Positions 55,707 to 62,767 of a stretch of 64,000 nt of DNA are shown in pieces; position 1 is the stretch's first letter, and every line of letters begins with the position of its first letter. The stretch spans positions 124,001 through 188,000 of the forward strand of contig NZ_JAUHPV010000003.1 in the NCBI RefSeq assembly GCF_030418315.1, read 5' to 3'. A program made the translations under genes and the position numbers. The notes under the pieces are model-generated. The model was not told the DNA's origin. It did no database searches and saw only the letters and a list, made by a program, of their open reading frames with translations. Origin of the DNA: Demequina zhanjiangensis. Lineage in GTDB: Bacteria > Actinomycetota > Actinomycetes > Actinomycetales > Demequinaceae.

Positions 55707-55788
55707 GAGACGTCACGTCGGCACCTACGGTGGAACCCACACCGCCAGACCTGAGCCGACCCGGACCCCACCAGAGGAGCCCTGACCC

Positions 55789-56142
55789 ATGCAGATCGAG
55801 TTCGCGATCCCTGACAAGACCTTCACCGTCACCTTGGACGACGGCGCCGCAGCCCAGTCGCTCGTGGATCAGCTTCCCCTCACGCTCTCCATGCGTGACT
55901 TCCATGGCATCGAGAAGGTCGCGGATCTGCCCGCACGGCTGTCCACGAAGGGCGCCCCTGACGGGATGAAGCCCAGCGTCGGCGCCCTGACCTACTACGC
56001 CCCCTGGGGCAACCTCGCCTTCTTCTACAAGCCGTTCGGATTCGCCGACGGGCTTGTCGCCTTGGGGACCGTGGATGGGGACCCCGCCGTGCTCCAGAGG
56101 ATCTCCGACGGCGACCAGGCCTCCGTCACCCTCGTCTCCTAG
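55789..56142 (+). CDS. cyclophilin-like fold protein 1
   Basis: A 117-residue protein of the bacterial cyclophilin-like (TM1367-type, PF18050-like) family. Its marks are an IEFAIPDKTFTVTLDDGAAAQSLVDQLPLTLSM-type beginning, YYAPWGNLAFFYKPF in the middle, and GDPAVLQRISDGDQASVTLV at the end. These proteins have the cyclophilin barrel but not the known prolyl isomerase site; function is unknown. A second member lies at 60595-60966, on the other side of the redox cluster. GAGGAG precedes the ATG. Confidence 0.85.
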   Translation: MQIEFAIPDKTFTVTLDDGAAAQSLVDQLPLTLSMRDFHGIEKVADLPARLSTKGAPDGMKPSVGALTYYAPWGNLAFFYKPFGFADGLVALGTVDGDPAVLQRISDGDQASVTLVS

Positions 56143-56151
56143 CGCTGGATG

Positions 56152-56194
56152 CGACTGAGCCCCGCCATCCCTCACAGGAGGCGGGGCTCAGTCG
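56152..56194. terminator. bidirectional terminator
   Basis: A perfect 15-bp stem (56152-56166 with 56180-56194) and a 13-nt loop between the converging cyclophilin-like and aldo/keto reductase genes. Confidence 0.85.
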
Positions 56195-56209
56195 TCGGGA
56201 TCGGGCAGG

Positions 56210-57118
56210 TCAGCCGCGGTTGGAGCTGAAGATCATCTTGAAGATCGTGCCCAGGTTCATCTTGCCGCCGTAGACGGGCATCATGTTCGCGTCGCCGTAG
56301 TCGGTCACGGGCTCGACGTTGTTGAGCGTCTCCATGTCCTCATCCGAGATGACGAAGTCGAGCTCGGCGTTGCTCTTCATGTGCGCCGGGTTCGCGGTCT
56401 TCGGCAGCGGCAGAAGGCCCAGCTGAAGGCAGTAGCGGATGGACAGCTGCGGCACCGAGACGTCGTACTTCGCGGCGATCGCCTTCACTGCCTCGTTGTT
56501 CAGCAGGGCGCCGTGCGCCACGGGGGAGTAGGCCTCGACGAGGATGCCCTTGCTCTGCGTGTACTCGATCAGCTCGAACGGCGTGTTGCCGATGTGCGCG
56601 AGCACCTGGTTGACGGCAGGCTGCACCGTCGCGACCTCGAGGATGTTGTCCAGGTCGTCCTTCTCGAAGTTCGACAGGCCGATCGCGCGGACCTTGCCTG
56701 CCTTGGTCGCGTCCTCCAGCGCGCGCCACACCTCACGGTTCTCGTCGAAGAAGCGCTTCTCGCCACGGAAGGACGTCCAAGGCTGCGGCGAGTGGATGAT
56801 CATCATGTCGATGTAGTCCAGTCCCGTCGCCTTGAGGGTGCGGTCGATCGACTTCGCGGCACGGGCGTACGACTTCGCGCCCGCGTCGACCTTCGAGGTG
56901 ACGAAGATGTCCTCGCGCTTCGCGCCGCTCGCGCGGACGCCTTCGCCGACGCCGGCCTCGTTGCGGTAGGCCTGCGCGGTGTCGATGTGGCGGTAGCCGA
57001 GGTCGATCGCCGACTTCACGGCGCCGACGACGTTCGTGTTGTTGATGAACCAGGTGCCGAGGCCGAGCTTCGGAATCTCGACCCCGTTGTTCAGGGTGTA
57101 GTTTTCCTCGAGGACCAT
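56210..57118 (-). CDS. aldo/keto reductase
   Basis: A 302-residue NADPH-dependent carbonyl reductase. The catalytic tetrad is visible: D46 and Y51 (HIDTAQAYRNE), K76 (FVTSKVDAG) and H109 (MMIIHSPQPW). The C-terminal part is slightly longer than the minimal 2,5-diketogluconate reductase type. GAAGGAGGAGG precedes the ATG. It is last in the transcription order DUF3737, MDR, PatB, AKR. The substrate is unknown; reactive aldehydes are a fair guess. Confidence 0.92.
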   Translation of the reverse strand: MVLEENYTLNNGVEIPKLGLGTWFINNTNVVGAVKSAIDLGYRHIDTAQAYRNEAGVGEGVRASGAKREDIFVTSKVDAGAKSYARAAKSIDRTLKATGLDYIDMMIIHSPQPWTSFRGEKRFFDENREVWRALEDATKAGKVRAIGLSNFEKDDLDNILEVATVQPAVNQVLAHIGNTPFELIEYTQSKGILVEAYSPVAHGALLNNEAVKAIAAKYDVSVPQLSIRYCLQLGLLPLPKTANPAHMKSNAELDFVISDEDMETLNNVEPVTDYGDANMMPVYGGKMNLGTIFKMIFSSNRG

Positions 57119-57167
57119 CGTCCTCCTCCTTCGATGGGTGGGTGGGGGGGTAGGTGAGTGGTGGTTG

Positions 57168-58388
57168 TCAGTGCTGTGCTGAGATCTCGGGCGCGCCCGG
57201 CAGCGGCTCGGCCCGCTCGAGAAGCTCCTGGACCGCGCGGCGAAGACGCGCGAGACCGTCGTCCAGCCGTGCCCGCGGGCACGCGAGGTTCATGCGCAGA
57301 TGCGTGCGATTCGAGGGGTCGTACTCGTGGCCGTCCGACAGGACGAGTCCCGTCGTGCGCCGGATGTGCTCCACGAGCGTCGTGCTGTCCACGTCGAGCG
57401 CTGAGGCGTCTATCCACAGCAGGTAGGTCGCCTCTCCCCGCTCGGGGACGAGTCCAGGGATCTCTGAGATCGCCTCCTCCGCACGTCGGCGGTTCTGTGC
57501 AAGGTAGTCGCGCAGCTCATCGAGCCACGTCTCGCCCTCGGTGAAGGCAGCGATCGTCGCCTCGACAGCGATCACGTTCGGCTCTGCGACCTCGTCCCGG
57601 TTGAAGCCCTTGACCACGCGGGCGCGAAGCTCCTCGTCGGGGATCACGACGGCCGCCGTCTGCAGGCCCGCCAGATTGAAGGCCTTGCTCGGCGACACGC
57701 AGGTGACGCTGATGGCCGCGCACGTGTCAGAGGCGGAGGCGAACGGCGTGTACTCGAGCCCTGGCGAGGTGAGGTCGCAGTGCACCTCGTCCGACAGGAC
57801 CGTGACACCGTGCTGCGCGCACAGGTCTCCGAGGCGCGCGAGGGTCTCGCGGCTCCAGATCGTGCCCGTGGGGTTCTGCGGGTTGCACAGGATCATCAGC
57901 GACGCCTTGGGGTCCGCGAGACGCGCCTCGAGGTCCTCCCAGTCGATGACGTAGCCCTCCGGCGTGCGCACCAGGCCGCTGGCCGATATCTGCCTGCCGC
58001 TGTTGCGCGCCGACGCGAAGAACACGTTGTACACGGGGGTGAGCATCACGACGTTGTCACCAGGCTCCGTGACGGAGCGGACAGTCGAGGACACCGCCGG
58101 GACAGTTCCCGTGGTGATCGTGATCCACTCCGGCTGCATGGTGAACCCGTGGCGCCGTGACCACCAATCGGAAACGGCCTCCGCGTACTCCGCAGGCGCC
58201 TCGGTGTAGCCGAGCACGCCGACGTCGATCTTCCTGCGAATCGCTTCCAGGATGGGAGGGGCGGCCTTGAAGTCCATGTCGGCGACCCACATCGGCAGCT
58301 CGCCCTCCGCGACATCCCACTTCATCGAGTGGGTGCCGCGTCGGTCGATCAGCGCATCGAAGTCGTACGTCATGGTCTGGCCGCTCAC
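57168..58388 (-). CDS. PatB/MalY family C-S lyase / aminotransferase
   Basis: A 406-residue PLP enzyme of the MalY/PatB family, usually a cystathionine beta-lyase. Features are YDFDALIDRRGTHSMKWD, LPMWVADMDFKAAPPI, LCNPQNPTGTIW, and the PLP lysine in VSPSKAFNLAGLQ. GTG 58388 overlaps the stop of the MDR gene (GTGA); ATG 58373 is the other start. It stands between two oxidoreductase genes, hinting at cysteine or thiol-conjugate breakdown linked with redox defence. Confidence 0.9.
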   Translation of the reverse strand: MSGQTMTYDFDALIDRRGTHSMKWDVAEGELPMWVADMDFKAAPPILEAIRRKIDVGVLGYTEAPAEYAEAVSDWWSRRHGFTMQPEWITITTGTVPAVSSTVRSVTEPGDNVVMLTPVYNVFFASARNSGRQISASGLVRTPEGYVIDWEDLEARLADPKASLMILCNPQNPTGTIWSRETLARLGDLCAQHGVTVLSDEVHCDLTSPGLEYTPFASASDTCAAISVTCVSPSKAFNLAGLQTAAVVIPDEELRARVVKGFNRDEVAEPNVIAVEATIAAFTEGETWLDELRDYLAQNRRRAEEAISEIPGLVPERGEATYLLWIDASALDVDSTTLVEHIRRTTGLVLSDGHEYDPSNRTHLRMNLACPRARLDDGLARLRRAVQELLERAEPLPGAPEISAQH

Positions 58389-59335
58389 TCGCCGAACGTG
58401 AGGATGATGCGACCGCGCAGGTGGCCTTCGTCCAGGCGCTGGTGGGCGGCCACGGCGTCGGACGCGGCGAACGTGTGCGCGACGCGCATGGCGAGCATGC
58501 CCGACTCGACCTGCTCACGCAGGCGCGTGATCGCGTCGATGTCAGTCGCGCGCTGACGGACGTTGACATGCTCGACCGTGATGCCTCGACCAGGGTCCTC
58601 GTCCCAGAAGCGCAGGTCGATCAGCGTGCCGTCATCCTTCACCGCAGGGATGATCTCCGCGTAGAGGGTGGCGCCGTCGATCACGGCGTCCACGCCGCCG
58701 GGAGCAGCCTCAAGGATCGCCTCGATCGAGCCGTCGCCGCGCGGCACGAACACGTCGGCGCCCAGGGCGAGCACGTCCGCCTCGTCCTCGGCCGAGGCGG
58801 TGGCGATGACGCGCAGGCCCTCGCTCTTGGCGAGCGGGATGGAGTAGCCGCCCACCGCGCCTGCGGCACCGGTGACGAGAATGGTCGCGCTGGCGGGCAG
58901 AGCGAGGGTGTCCAGTGCGTTGCGGGCGGTGAGCGCGTTCATGAGCCACGACGCGGCGTGCGGCATGTCGGAGCCCTGCGGGGCGGCGGTCACCGAGGTC
59001 GCGGGCAGCGTGACGTACTCGCTGTAGCCGCCGTAGTTGCCGGTGTTGTCCACGATGCCGACCACGGCCTGGCCGATCTCGAGCCCGAGCTCGGGCTCGA
59101 CGCCGGGGCCGAGCTCGTCGATCACGCCGGCGATGTCCATGCCGGGGATGTACGGACGCTCAAGGCCCTCGTAGATCGCAGCCAGCAGGCCCTCGCGCAG
59201 CATCACGTCCGCAGGGTTGAGGCCGGCAGCCTTGACGCTGACGCGCACCTCGCCTTCAGCGGCGTGGGGCTCAGGCAGCTCCACCTGGGTCAGGACCTCG
59301 GGGCCGCCGTACTCGTTCAGACCGATCGCCTTCAT
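58385..59335 (-). CDS. MDR-type NADP-dependent oxidoreductase (quinone oxidoreductase-like)
   Basis: A 316-residue medium-chain reductase without zinc ligands. It has an N-terminal GroES-like domain (MKAIGLNEYGGPEVL, VKAAGLNPADVMLREG) and a Rossmann domain (ATILVTGAAGAVGGYSIPLAKSEG). This fits quinone or enoyl reductases of the QOR branch. GAAAGGAGAG precedes the ATG, 31 nt after the DUF3737 gene. Its stop overlaps the PatB start. Confidence 0.9.
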   Translation of the reverse strand: MKAIGLNEYGGPEVLTQVELPEPHAAEGEVRVSVKAAGLNPADVMLREGLLAAIYEGLERPYIPGMDIAGVIDELGPGVEPELGLEIGQAVVGIVDNTGNYGGYSEYVTLPATSVTAAPQGSDMPHAASWLMNALTARNALDTLALPASATILVTGAAGAVGGYSIPLAKSEGLRVIATASAEDEADVLALGADVFVPRGDGSIEAILEAAPGGVDAVIDGATLYAEIIPAVKDDGTLIDLRFWDEDPGRGITVEHVNVRQRATDIDAITRLREQVESGMLAMRVAHTFAASDAVAAHQRLDEGHLRGRIILTFGE

Positions 59336-59366
59336 CAGGGACTCTCCTTTCGGGAGGATGGGGTTG

Positions 59367-60245
59367 TCAGGAAGCGGAGAGCGACTCGTCGATGACGACG
59401 GTGGTCGCAGAGGGGTCGATGCGCTCGGGATCGAGCGTGAGCTCCCCGATGCCGGGGGCACGAATGATGCCTGCGGTGGGGTTGAGGACGGAGTCGATGC
59501 GGGTGACCGACTCGACGTCCACCGTCGAGTACTCGAAGGCCAGGCTCGTGTCGATCAGGCGACAGCTCCTGAGGGTGAGGTTCTCGATGTAGCACATGCC
59601 CTGCAGGCTCGTGATGGTGCAGTTCTCGAAGGTGAGGTGTGAGGAGTTCCAGCCCAGGTACTCGCCGACGATCACCGAGTCGCGGACCACCACGTTCGAG
59701 GAGTTCCAGAAGGCGTCCTTCGACAGGATCCTGGCGTCGCTGATCTCGATGTCGCTCGCGCCGTCGAACGCGTAGTTGCCGCTGATCCGCAGGTTCTTCG
59801 CACGGATGCCGGCGGAGTTCATCGCGAAGTAGTCTCCGCGGGCGCTCACGTCCAGCAGCTCGATCTCGCTGCAGTTCCAGAGGGTCTCCTGCGCGTTCGG
59901 GAGGTCCACGTGGGCGAGGCTGATCCCGTGGGAACGGCGGAACGTCTTCGGAGCGGCGATGGTCGAGTCGGTGATCCTGACGTCGCTCGCGTACCAGAGG
60001 CCCGAGCGGCCGTTGACTGACAGCACCGAGTCACGAGCGGTCACGTCGGTCGCGTACCAGAGGGGGTACTTCCAGTCGAACTGCGTGCGGTCGATCTCGA
60101 CCCCGGTGCTCTCCTTGAGGGGTGACTCGCCATCGGCGAAGACCGAGTCCTCGACGTGGATGTCCTGCGCGTGAAACAACGCACGCTCGCCGGTGAGTCG
60201 ACGCTGGCTGACGCTCTCCTGGGTGCGGATGATGGCCTCGGTCAT
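59367..60245 (-). CDS. DUF3737 family right-handed beta-helix protein
   Basis: A 292-residue protein that matches the DUF3737 family, of unknown function. It is built from about ten repeats of 20-25 residues with a recurring aromatic-Trp step: LWYATDV, LWYASDV, LWNCSEI, FWNSSNV, GWNSSHL. This is the pattern of a right-handed beta-helix like pectin lyase folds. No signal peptide is present. GGAGGGTC precedes the ATG. It is first in the four-gene minus-strand operon and divergent from cyclophilin-like protein 2. Confidence 0.9.
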   Translation of the reverse strand: MTEAIIRTQESVSQRRLTGERALFHAQDIHVEDSVFADGESPLKESTGVEIDRTQFDWKYPLWYATDVTARDSVLSVNGRSGLWYASDVRITDSTIAAPKTFRRSHGISLAHVDLPNAQETLWNCSEIELLDVSARGDYFAMNSAGIRAKNLRISGNYAFDGASDIEISDARILSKDAFWNSSNVVVRDSVIVGEYLGWNSSHLTFENCTITSLQGMCYIENLTLRSCRLIDTSLAFEYSTVDVESVTRIDSVLNPTAGIIRAPGIGELTLDPERIDPSATTVVIDESLSAS

Positions 60246-60339
60246 GTCTGACCCTCCTTGACGTGAGTGAAGCGAAGCGTGCGGTTGCGGGCCCTCCTCA
60301 GGTATGCCGCAGTGCCGCGATGCCTCCATGCTCACACCG

Positions 60340-60367
60340 ACAATCCTGGGTGCAGAGTGCGCGTCAA
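60340..60367 (-). promoter_or_regulatory. possible promoter of the DUF3737 operon
   Basis: Read on the minus strand: TTGACG (60367-60362), 16 nt, GATTGT (60345-60340), about 90 nt before the ATG. The -10 match is weak. Confidence 0.25.
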
Positions 60368-60371
60368 GAGG

Positions 60372-60499
60372 GGTTCTGCCAGGGCACCCCAGGGCCGTTC
60401 CACGGAGCGCAGGCCGGTCGGCATCCGGCGTGACGCGCGCCCCATTGCGGTGGTGCGACGCCGCTGCGGGGTGCTCGTGAGAGTGCTACTGGCAGAACC
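60372..60499. promoter_or_regulatory. inverted 11-bp copies in the divergent DUF3737/cyclophilin region
   Basis: GGTTCTGCCAG (60372-60382) and CTGGCAGAACC (60489-60499) are perfect inverted copies 106 nt apart, within the 349-nt gap between divergent genes. The gap has no other gene. The pair may be binding sites for a regulator of both operons; a TTGACT box lies at 60523-60528. Confidence 0.4.
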
Positions 60500-60594
60500 T
60501 GGCACGGGCGCGCCGACGGGAGTTGACTCTCCGATCAGAGAACGTCAGGCGCGCATCCCACGCGGTGCCGGCATCGAGCTGAGAGGAGGGTCGC

Positions 60595-60966
60595 ATGCGT
60601 GCGACCAGCCACGAGACACCCGTCATGCTGACGGTCGGATCCACGAAGATCCCTGCCACGTTGAACGACACCCGCACGGCGCAGGGCTTCCTGCAGAAGC
60701 TGCCTTTCACCATCAGCCTGCAGCGCTACGAGGTGGACTACTGCGCGCCCACCGCGCCCCTCGACACCGACCAGAAGGAGACACAGCATGGGTGGAGCAA
60801 CGGCGACATCGGTCTCTTCGGCGGATGGTTCACGCTGCTGTTCGACGGCGAGGAGAGCTCGGTGAACACACCGGGTGTCATGGTGATCGGGCACATCGAT
60901 CAGCCTCACCTCGATCGAGTCAAGCAGCTGGGCGACGCGATCACGCTCACCGTGGAGCGCGTCTGA
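60595..60966 (+). CDS. cyclophilin-like fold protein 2
   Basis: A 123-residue member of the same cyclophilin-like family as the product of 55789-56142. It has MLTVGSTKIPATLNDTRTAQGFLQKLPFTISL, a central VDYCAPT and DIGLFGGWFTLLFDGEE, and the end QLGDAITLTVERV. The two paralogues share plan more than sequence. GAGGAGGGTCGC precedes ATG 60595. Its stop overlaps the hydrolase start (TGATG). Confidence 0.85.
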   Translation: MRATSHETPVMLTVGSTKIPATLNDTRTAQGFLQKLPFTISLQRYEVDYCAPTAPLDTDQKETQHGWSNGDIGLFGGWFTLLFDGEESSVNTPGVMVIGHIDQPHLDRVKQLGDAITLTVERV

Positions 60967-61748
60967 TGTCCGGTTGGGGCCGCATGCACCCGCGGATCGA
61001 CCCGATCCGGCACGGCGAGGTATCGCTCGCGGCACGATGGCGGCTCCCTGCCGCAGCCGACGACGGGCAGGTTCCGCTTGTCATCCTGATGCACGGTCTG
61101 CTCGACAGCATGGAGGCCCCGGTGATCCGCGCGCTCGCCGACTCGCTCGCCGAGCGAGGCATCGCGTCCCTGCGCTTCGACTTCCACGGACACGGCCGCA
61201 GCAGCGGACGCTTCGAGGACATGACCGTACCCGCAGAGGTCGACGACGCGCTCACGGTGCTCGACCTCGCACAGTCCGACGCCCGCTTCTCGACGATCAG
61301 CGTCGTCGGTCACTCCCAAGGCGGTGTCGTCGCGTCACTGCTCGGAGGCCGCGTGGGTGACCGGATCGCCAGCATGGTGCTCCTCGCGCCGCCCCATGGC
61401 GTGGCCGGTGCAGCGCTGCGAGGCGACATCCTCGGCAACCGTTTCGACCCCACGGACCCGCCCGATTCCCTCGTGCTCCACCCATGGGGCGGAGCCAGGC
61501 TCGGCCGTGAGTACCTCGTGACGACGCAATCGCTCGACATCGACGCCGCGCTCGCGCGCTTTCCCGGGCCGGTCTGCATCATCCAGGGGACCAGGGACGA
61601 GATCGTCGATCCGGGTTCGGCCGAGGCATACGCCGCCGTCGCCCAGGACGCCGAGGTCCACATGGTGTCGGGCCAGGACCACGAGTTCCTCGCCGGTCCG
61701 AAGTGGATCGCAGAGATCGCGGCCGACTTCCTCGCGCGTCACGCCTGA
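60966..61748 (+). CDS. alpha/beta hydrolase (serine aminopeptidase S33 / esterase type)
   Basis: A 260-residue hydrolase with the nucleophile elbow GHSQGG (about residues 118-123), the oxyanion-region LMHGLLDS, acid in GTRDEIVD and histidine in GQDHEFL: a full Ser-Asp-His triad. The layout resembles feruloyl esterase-like enzymes of Firmicutes and bifidobacteria. The ATG uses the last base of the previous stop, so it is co-translated with cyclophilin-like protein 2. The substrate is unknown. Confidence 0.9.
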   Translation: MSGWGRMHPRIDPIRHGEVSLAARWRLPAAADDGQVPLVILMHGLLDSMEAPVIRALADSLAERGIASLRFDFHGHGRSSGRFEDMTVPAEVDDALTVLDLAQSDARFSTISVVGHSQGGVVASLLGGRVGDRIASMVLLAPPHGVAGAALRGDILGNRFDPTDPPDSLVLHPWGGARLGREYLVTTQSLDIDAALARFPGPVCIIQGTRDEIVDPGSAEAYAAVAQDAEVHMVSGQDHEFLAGPKWIAEIAADFLARHA

Positions 61749-61882: not shown

Positions 61883-62767
61883 TCAGCTGTGGAGGAAGAC
61901 GTTCTTCTCCTGCTCCACGGTCTCCGATGCCCACCAGCTCGCCAGCAGCGAGAGCTTCTCGTAGGACTCGGACTCCGGTGCGGCTGTGTACACGGTCAGG
62001 CCCAGGTCCTCGTCGCCCGGGAGGGCGAGCGTGTTGTACTCGAGCTCGAGCATGCCGACCGCCGGGTGCCGGACGCGCTTGATGCCCTCGATGTGAAGGC
62101 GGACGTCATGCCGTGCCCAGCGCGTACGGAACTCCTCGGATCGAGTGGACAGCTCACCGACGAGGTCCGTCACCTGACGGTCGAACGGGTTGCGTCCCGC
62201 GACCGTGCGCAGGCTCGCGACCGCGCCGTCGGCGATCTCGTCCCAGTCGGGGTAGAACTGCCTGGCGCTGGGGTCGAAGAAGATGAAGCGCGAGTAGTTG
62301 ACGGTGTCGCCGAGTGCGCGGAAGAGCGGGTCGTACATCGCCCTCGCCAGCGCGTTCGTCGCGATGATCGTGGAACGCCTGTCGCCGAGCACAGCCGCGC
62401 CATCGGAGATCGACGCCACGAGGTGCAGCAGACTGGGGCGCACGCCGGTACGCGGGGCCGGGCGCTTGCGCGCGCGGGATCCCGCGTTCGCGGCGCGCGC
62501 CAGGTCGAACAGATGCATCCGCTCGGCCTCGGTGAAGCGCAGCGCGGAGGCGATGGCCTCCAGCACCTCATCAGAGACGCCGCGAAGGTCGCCTCGCTCG
62601 AGCTTCGTGTAGTACTCGACGCTCACTCCTGCGAGCACCGCGACCTCGCCGCGGCGCAGGCCGGGCACACGTCGGTTGCCTGCCGCGGGCAGGCCTGCCA
62701 TCTCTGGTGTCACCTTGGCGCGGCGGGTCACGAGGAACTCGCGCACCTCTTCCTTGGAGTTGCTCAT
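61883..62767 (-). CDS. XRE-type regulator with MmyB-like ligand-binding domain
   Basis: A 294-residue regulator: N-terminal HTH (about 12-75; RVPGLRRGEVAVLAGVSVEYYTKLERG) and a C-terminal MmyB-like domain (about 105-275). In this widespread actinobacterial family the C-terminal domain binds fatty-acid-like ligands. It is 53 nt from the MFS gene on the same strand and downstream of it in transcription order. It may control that transporter. Confidence 0.92.
   Translation of the reverse strand: MSNSKEEVREFLVTRRAKVTPEMAGLPAAGNRRVPGLRRGEVAVLAGVSVEYYTKLERGDLRGVSDEVLEAIASALRFTEAERMHLFDLARAANAGSRARKRPAPRTGVRPSLLHLVASISDGAAVLGDRRSTIIATNALARAMYDPLFRALGDTVNYSRFIFFDPSARQFYPDWDEIADGAVASLRTVAGRNPFDRQVTDLVGELSTRSEEFRTRWARHDVRLHIEGIKRVRHPAVGMLELEYNTLALPGDEDLGLTVYTAAPESESYEKLSLLASWWASETVEQEKNVFLHS

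Follow-up and report, generated by a model that had tools for sequence, protein, structure and literature searches.

The locus lies in a window of 64,000 nucleotides (the whole stretch of Demequina zhanjiangensis DNA that we analysed) and comprises a cluster of seven genes followed by a regulator. Four genes occupy the minus strand. The first encodes a 292-aa DUF3737 protein of subfamily A (59367–60245; PF12541, 370 bits against a gathering cut-off of 23.9, over 273 of the 275 profile positions), followed by MDR, a PIG3-like protein of the NAD(P)H quinone-reductase type (58385–59341; PF08240 and PF13602; TIGR02824 at 137 bits, below the cut-off of 296.8), a PatB-type PLP C–S lyase of a DUF3737-associated clade (57168–58388) and, last, a DkgA/YvgN-like aldo/keto reductase (AKR; 56210–57118; PF00248; best PDB match, YvgN, 3D3F). 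A gap of ~25 bp separates DUF3737 from MDR, MDR and PatB overlap by 4 bp and 49 bp lie between PatB and AKR, a spacing from which we infer that the four genes form one operon; the genes have Shine–Dalgarno-like sequences. Across a 349-bp intergenic region (60246–60594), where both promoters are presumed to lie, DUF3737 is divergent from two plus-strand genes, which encode CYC2, a second cyclophilin-like protein (60595–60966; PF18050, 63.5 bits), and ABH, an alpha/beta hydrolase (60966–61748; Hydrolase_4, PF12146, 82 bits), with the CYC2 stop overlapping the ABH start (TGATG). At the other end lies CYC1, a TM1367-type cyclophilin-like protein, apparently cytosolic (55789–56142, plus strand; PF18050, 111 bits), which is convergent with AKR and not divergent from the minus-strand operon. 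An XRE/MmyB-like (MLTR_LBD) regulator follows beyond ABH (61883–62767, minus strand; PF17765, 187 bits). Searches of the locus for a sigma-70-like promoter, a convincing operator and a terminator found none. The GC content of the cluster genes (64–70%, against a window mean of 69.4%) is not clearly foreign. A preliminary description of this DNA had named the seven cluster genes and had set CYC2 and ABH divergent from four coupled minus-strand genes; all eight features are indeed open frames at or near the positions given here that match the named families, and the coordinates confirm the divergent arrangement.

The cluster is a junction of two older pieces, as seen from a DNA search of the genus (44 genomes, the window's own included), in which matches came in blocks. 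CYC1 and AKR (55787–57118) recur next to each other elsewhere in the genomes of congeners (77–79% DNA identity), with the DNA conserved in G405 and G410, and are a gene pair belonging to the host genus. The flanking block of KPR, aminotransferase and Lrp genes and the MLTR regulator also match congeners. In the same search, the stretch from PatB to ABH had no substantial DNA match, and none of the genomes other than the window's own (43) had DUF3737. Within the family, the window genome alone has it (1 of 47), and it is present in 5 of 396 genomes of the window's phylum and 8 of 299 of the phylum to which the Lachnospiraceae belong, and the nearest relatives of both the window DUF3737 and its PatB are in one Propionibacteriaceae metagenome-assembled genome (MAG), at 60% identity each. 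Given the absence across the genus and the patchy distribution of DUF3737, the DUF3737–PatB part was therefore very probably acquired. Simple insertion of a module between AKR and the MLTR regulator does not fit the order seen in congeners (MLTR, CYC1, AKR). In several congeners an MLTR_LBD regulator lies near AKR, with or without CYC1, and may regulate AKR and CYC1.

Among the genes of the window cluster, PatB is the constant companion of DUF3737. A profile scan yielded a MAG-rich set of 80 DUF3737 loci, distributed over Bacillota, Actinomycetota and Riflebacteria, and PatB was present at 72 of the 84 loci analysed. Of 45 DUF3737 genes in 44 whole genomes, 38 had a PatB no more than 5 kb away (~0.23 expected by chance), a rate that holds for the subfamily of the window protein because the 45 genes were picked by similarity to it; all of these PatBs were on the same strand as DUF3737 and 37 were downstream, mostly 30–190 bp away. 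The preliminary description had expected co-occurrence of the cluster's families elsewhere, and for DUF3737 with PatB this is borne out; its account of the cluster's composition was likewise right, although the DUF3737–PatB core and the distinct clade of that PatB had escaped it. The sets of DUF3737, AKR and cyclophilin-like genes that it named for lactic acid bacteria and bifidobacteria are real but in the minority (PF18050 genes within 5 kb of 9 of the 45 DUF3737 genes, against ~0.1–0.2 expected; AKR at 10 of the 84 loci) and fit a second subfamily, B, best. The cluster as one conserved unit is not borne out: CYC1 and AKR are a separate genus pair, no other locus has the full set of seven genes, and MDR, which had no match in the 84 loci and sits between DUF3737 and PatB only in the window genome, is incidental to DUF3737.

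Oxidoreductases, cyclophilin-like genes and exporters form a changeable shell around DUF3737–PatB; LysR regulators (24 loci), LysE (7) and MATE (5) recur near the pair, and LysE or MATE exporters adjoin DUF3737 in several loci. This shell bears on the function proposed in the preliminary description, in which reductases, C–S lyase, DUF3737 and cyclophilin-like proteins would act together against electrophile or quinone stress. The packing of four of the genes as one operon in the window genome accords with such a unit, as does the recurrence of AKR, FMN reductase, iron ADH, SDR, CMD, alpha/beta-hydrolase, LysR and cyclophilin-like genes around both DUF3737 subfamilies, but most DUF3737–PatB pairs lack all of these neighbours, MDR is peculiar to the window genome and CYC1–AKR has its own history in the genus, and we consider a joint stress-defence role rather doubtful.

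The PatB partner is itself distinctive. A tree built by a quick method from 103 members of the PatB family groups all 71 DUF3737-linked PatBs, among them that of the window, into a single clade (SH-aLRT 100) and places a further 27 PatB-like paralogs, encoded by the same genomes, outside it. Five further proteins inside the clade were labelled unlinked; of these, L127 really adjoins DUF3737 where its contig ends, and four are from genomes with DUF3737 elsewhere. Scores against a profile of the clade (A3) separate its full-length members (540–714 bits) from all others (≤471 bits), and a DUF3737 of Bacteroidota that lies outside subfamily A has an adjacent PatB with most of the signature residues, at 517 bits. 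The window protein exceeds the TIGR04350 cut-off (378.5 versus 340 bits), which places it in the PatB/MalY C–S lyase family. As in the MalY/PatB C–S beta-lyases of B. subtilis (6QP3) and S. hominis (6QP1 and 6QP2), which are fold type I PLP enzymes of the same kind, it keeps the PLP lysine (K235, aligned with Lys234 of 6QP3) and the carboxylate-binding arginine of the substrate site (R365), which correspond to Lys246 and Arg376 of S. hominis PatB with a constant offset of 11. The clade differs from these enzymes in its tie to DUF3737 and in having N121, Cys204 and a polar and acidic N263-D265-E266. The side-chain pocket of S. hominis PatB consists of Val108, Phe274 and Thr276 (PMC7385124), which the offset of 11, taken from sequence and not from a structure of the clade, maps to P97, N263 and D265, all clade-specific positions. 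N121 replaces the second Tyr of a Tyr–Tyr motif that is kept in 20 of 20 comparison PatBs, and the clade shows little or no variation at N129, C204, N263, D265, E266 and E269, where other PatBs mostly differ. The side-chain-selecting part of the pocket thus appears to have turned polar and acidic. A PDB search found no solved structure close to the clade; the Lactobacillus C–S lyases 3DZZ and 8Y54 were set aside, since they have N121 in common with it but most of its remaining signature residues are missing from them.

These residues also bear on a more ordinary role, in which this PatB would act like MetC as a cystathionine beta-lyase, with DUF3737 assisting in methionine synthesis or sulfur recycling. 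MalY/PatB enzymes are able to cleave cystathionine (PMC7385124, PMC11203769), and in Lachnospira eligens the pair comes after a sufCBDSU operon; against this, the clade stands apart from other PatBs with its pocket residues changed, the neighbourhoods show no recurring methionine genes and the SUF link was seen once, making such a role improbable. The L. eligens locus (ATCC 27750 plasmid NC_012780.1, 6–7709) carries sufCBDSU, then DUF3737–PatB, then thrH, on one strand; the SUF iron–sulfur operon was set aside as a general partner, being confined to this species.

We also assessed whether DUF3737-A and the PatB clade occur in the same genomes. Among 150 genomes of the family Lachnospiraceae, for which borderline assignments were checked, 30 had subfamily A, 33 had the PatB clade and 29 had both, with 1 genome having DUF3737-A only, 4 the PatB clade only and 116 neither (Fisher P ~1.5 × 10−25). 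The two genes were not adjacent in 6 of the 29 genomes with both, one of these probably owing to a contig break, and in five genomes (G450, G789, G795, G864 and G911) they co-occur at well-separated sites, which weakens co-inheritance by linkage alone as an explanation of the pairing. In the window's phylum (396 genomes) the PatB clade and subfamily A were both confined to G000 and G291, and in the Lachnospiraceae phylum (299 genomes) both were confined to G450; G000 and G450 were search centres, so these two samples add few independent positives, and the lack of any false positive in either is informative. Clade-profile scores were bimodal in both (617–652 versus ≤406 in the 396 genomes; 648 versus ≤471 in the 299). 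The divergences of DUF3737 and PatB are correlated (r = 0.68; permutation maximum, 0.28), which partly reflects shared species history. DUF3737-A, then, almost never occurs without a clade PatB, in several phyla; the 4 genomes with PatB only, and copies of DUF3737-A on Lactobacillaceae plasmids that have no adjacent PatB, indicate that the pairing is not absolute.

Subfamilies A and B split in the DUF3737 tree (SH-aLRT 99) and are 35–40% identical to each other. The PatB clade is present in 1 of the 28 genomes with subfamily B, and that one also has A; judged by gene content, subfamily B seems to work without a clade PatB. Its neighbours include LysR, cyclophilin-like lipoproteins, dienelactone-hydrolase-like proteins, flavodoxin/FMN reductases and AKRs. 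The window DUF3737, which has no evident signal peptide, was predicted by AlphaFold2 (82 sequences) to be an all-beta protein (pLDDT 95.7, pTM 0.91) with the fold of a right-handed parallel beta-helix, matching solved members over its full length. Its PDB matches are generic beta-helices (TM ≤0.46, ≤16% identity; VIA Z ~19–23 over ~280 residues); no sequence relative was found in the PDB, and against Pfam no polysaccharide-enzyme family was matched, with Beta_helix below threshold only. Compared with the pectate-lyase-like beta-helices (polygalacturonases, AlgE epimerases, tailspikes and pertactin), DUF3737 is small, single-domain and apparently cytosolic. The fold was rejected as a guide to function, the matches being generic and the solved neighbours of many functions. 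Both subfamilies keep E40, K44, Y60, W63, R80, W84, K100, R103, E120, W123 and Y139, together with Y158, D177, W180, E195, Y196, W199, Q215, C218, Y219, F237 and E238. These residues recur every ~19–20 positions, mostly at the turns that follow the strands of successive rungs or next to them, and such a conserved strip is what a long candidate binding face would look like in the model.

A strip common to both subfamilies suggests that DUF3737 itself has a ligand or an activity, which, with the existence of subfamily B and of lactobacillus plasmid copies that have no clade PatB nearby, argues against a purely non-enzymatic protein, such as a subunit or inhibitor, that binds PatB and controls or stabilises it. 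The very tight co-occurrence and co-orientation of the two genes, and the fact that DUF3737 has no known catalytic relative and resembles only generic beta-helices of the PDB, would fit such a partner, which we nevertheless regard as unlikely.

Because DUF3737 and PatB stay constant while the reductases and cyclophilin-like genes around them are interchangeable, the pair probably represents an unrecognised two-protein pathway for a sulfur compound. With reasonable, if limited, confidence, we propose that DUF3737-A and the PatB clade are a functional pair, usually in one operon and horizontally spread, in which PatB would cleave a polar cysteine S-conjugate and DUF3737 would either act on that conjugate, by binding or preparing it, or bind PatB. 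The clade PatB, a predicted C–S lyase acting on a polar substrate, would carry out beta-elimination of the conjugate to a thiol, pyruvate and ammonia, the side chain being more polar or charged than in known PatB substrates. DUF3737, as a putative cytosolic beta-helix, could bind or chemically prepare the S-conjugate, or bind PatB itself. The shell of reductases and exporters suggests that the precursors are reactive carbonyls or quinones and the products thiols, close to what the preliminary description had guessed. Oxidoreductases nearby, in the window AKR and MDR, might together with exporters handle such compounds, and LysE or MATE next to DUF3737 would fit product export. More tentatively, DUF3737 may be a new type of enzyme or a substrate carrier in series with a dedicated C–S lyase on a polar cysteine S-conjugate, in a pathway present in about one-fifth of the sampled Lachnospiraceae-family genomes and scattered horizontally into actinobacteria and Bacteroidota, with subfamily B perhaps serving a parallel pathway with cyclophilin-like and alpha/beta-hydrolase proteins. 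DUF3737, PF12541 and the gene combination were not mentioned in the one open-access literature collection searched. Through the pairing, a family whose function is so far unassigned gains a partner of known chemistry and a testable hypothesis (two genes, one operon) in which the products of the PLP enzyme, thiol and pyruvate, are easy to assay. C–S lyases decide the fate of cysteine conjugates from food compounds and xenobiotics, and this PatB clade is common in gut Lachnospiraceae.

The two cyclophilin-like proteins of the window are 17–18% identical, both exceed the PF18050 cut-off and neither has an evident signal peptide, unlike the Firmicute cyclophilin-like neighbours of DUF3737, which are mostly lipoproteins. 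CYC1 has a predicted cyclophilin-like fold (AlphaFold2 pLDDT 96.4) whose best PDB match is TM1367 (1ZX8; TM 0.82); it resembles TM1367-type proteins (1ZX8 and 2KA0) in fold at 16–17% identity, with canonical cyclophilins ranking well below TM1367. The model also matches the Pictet-Spenglerases KslB and McbB (TMq ~0.7–0.8), and such a fold may therefore catalyse reactions of amine or carbonyl substrates and not act as a PPIase.

Several smaller observations concern individual loci. A ~79-aa protein without a Pfam match lies near DUF3737, mostly directly upstream, at 12 loci (for example, L063, 9721–9957); by eye it is like the C-terminal helix of MerR regulators, minus the DNA-binding part. At five loci (L074 and L075, from Lachnospira, and L039, L067 and L080) PatB is not adjacent, and a MATE or LysE exporter often lies directly 3′ of DUF3737. 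Copper resistance was rejected as a general context, as it came down essentially to one plasmid island and one rumen locus with a divergent Cu-ATPase. On the Lactobacillus and Pediococcus plasmids (L214, L215 and L216), DUF3737-A, with no adjacent PatB, lies in this copper-resistance island together with cupredoxin, Cu-ATPase, a two-component system, lgt, DUF2933, PspC and YdhK, and the plasmid DUF3737 is ~99% identical between the genera, indicating recent plasmid spread.
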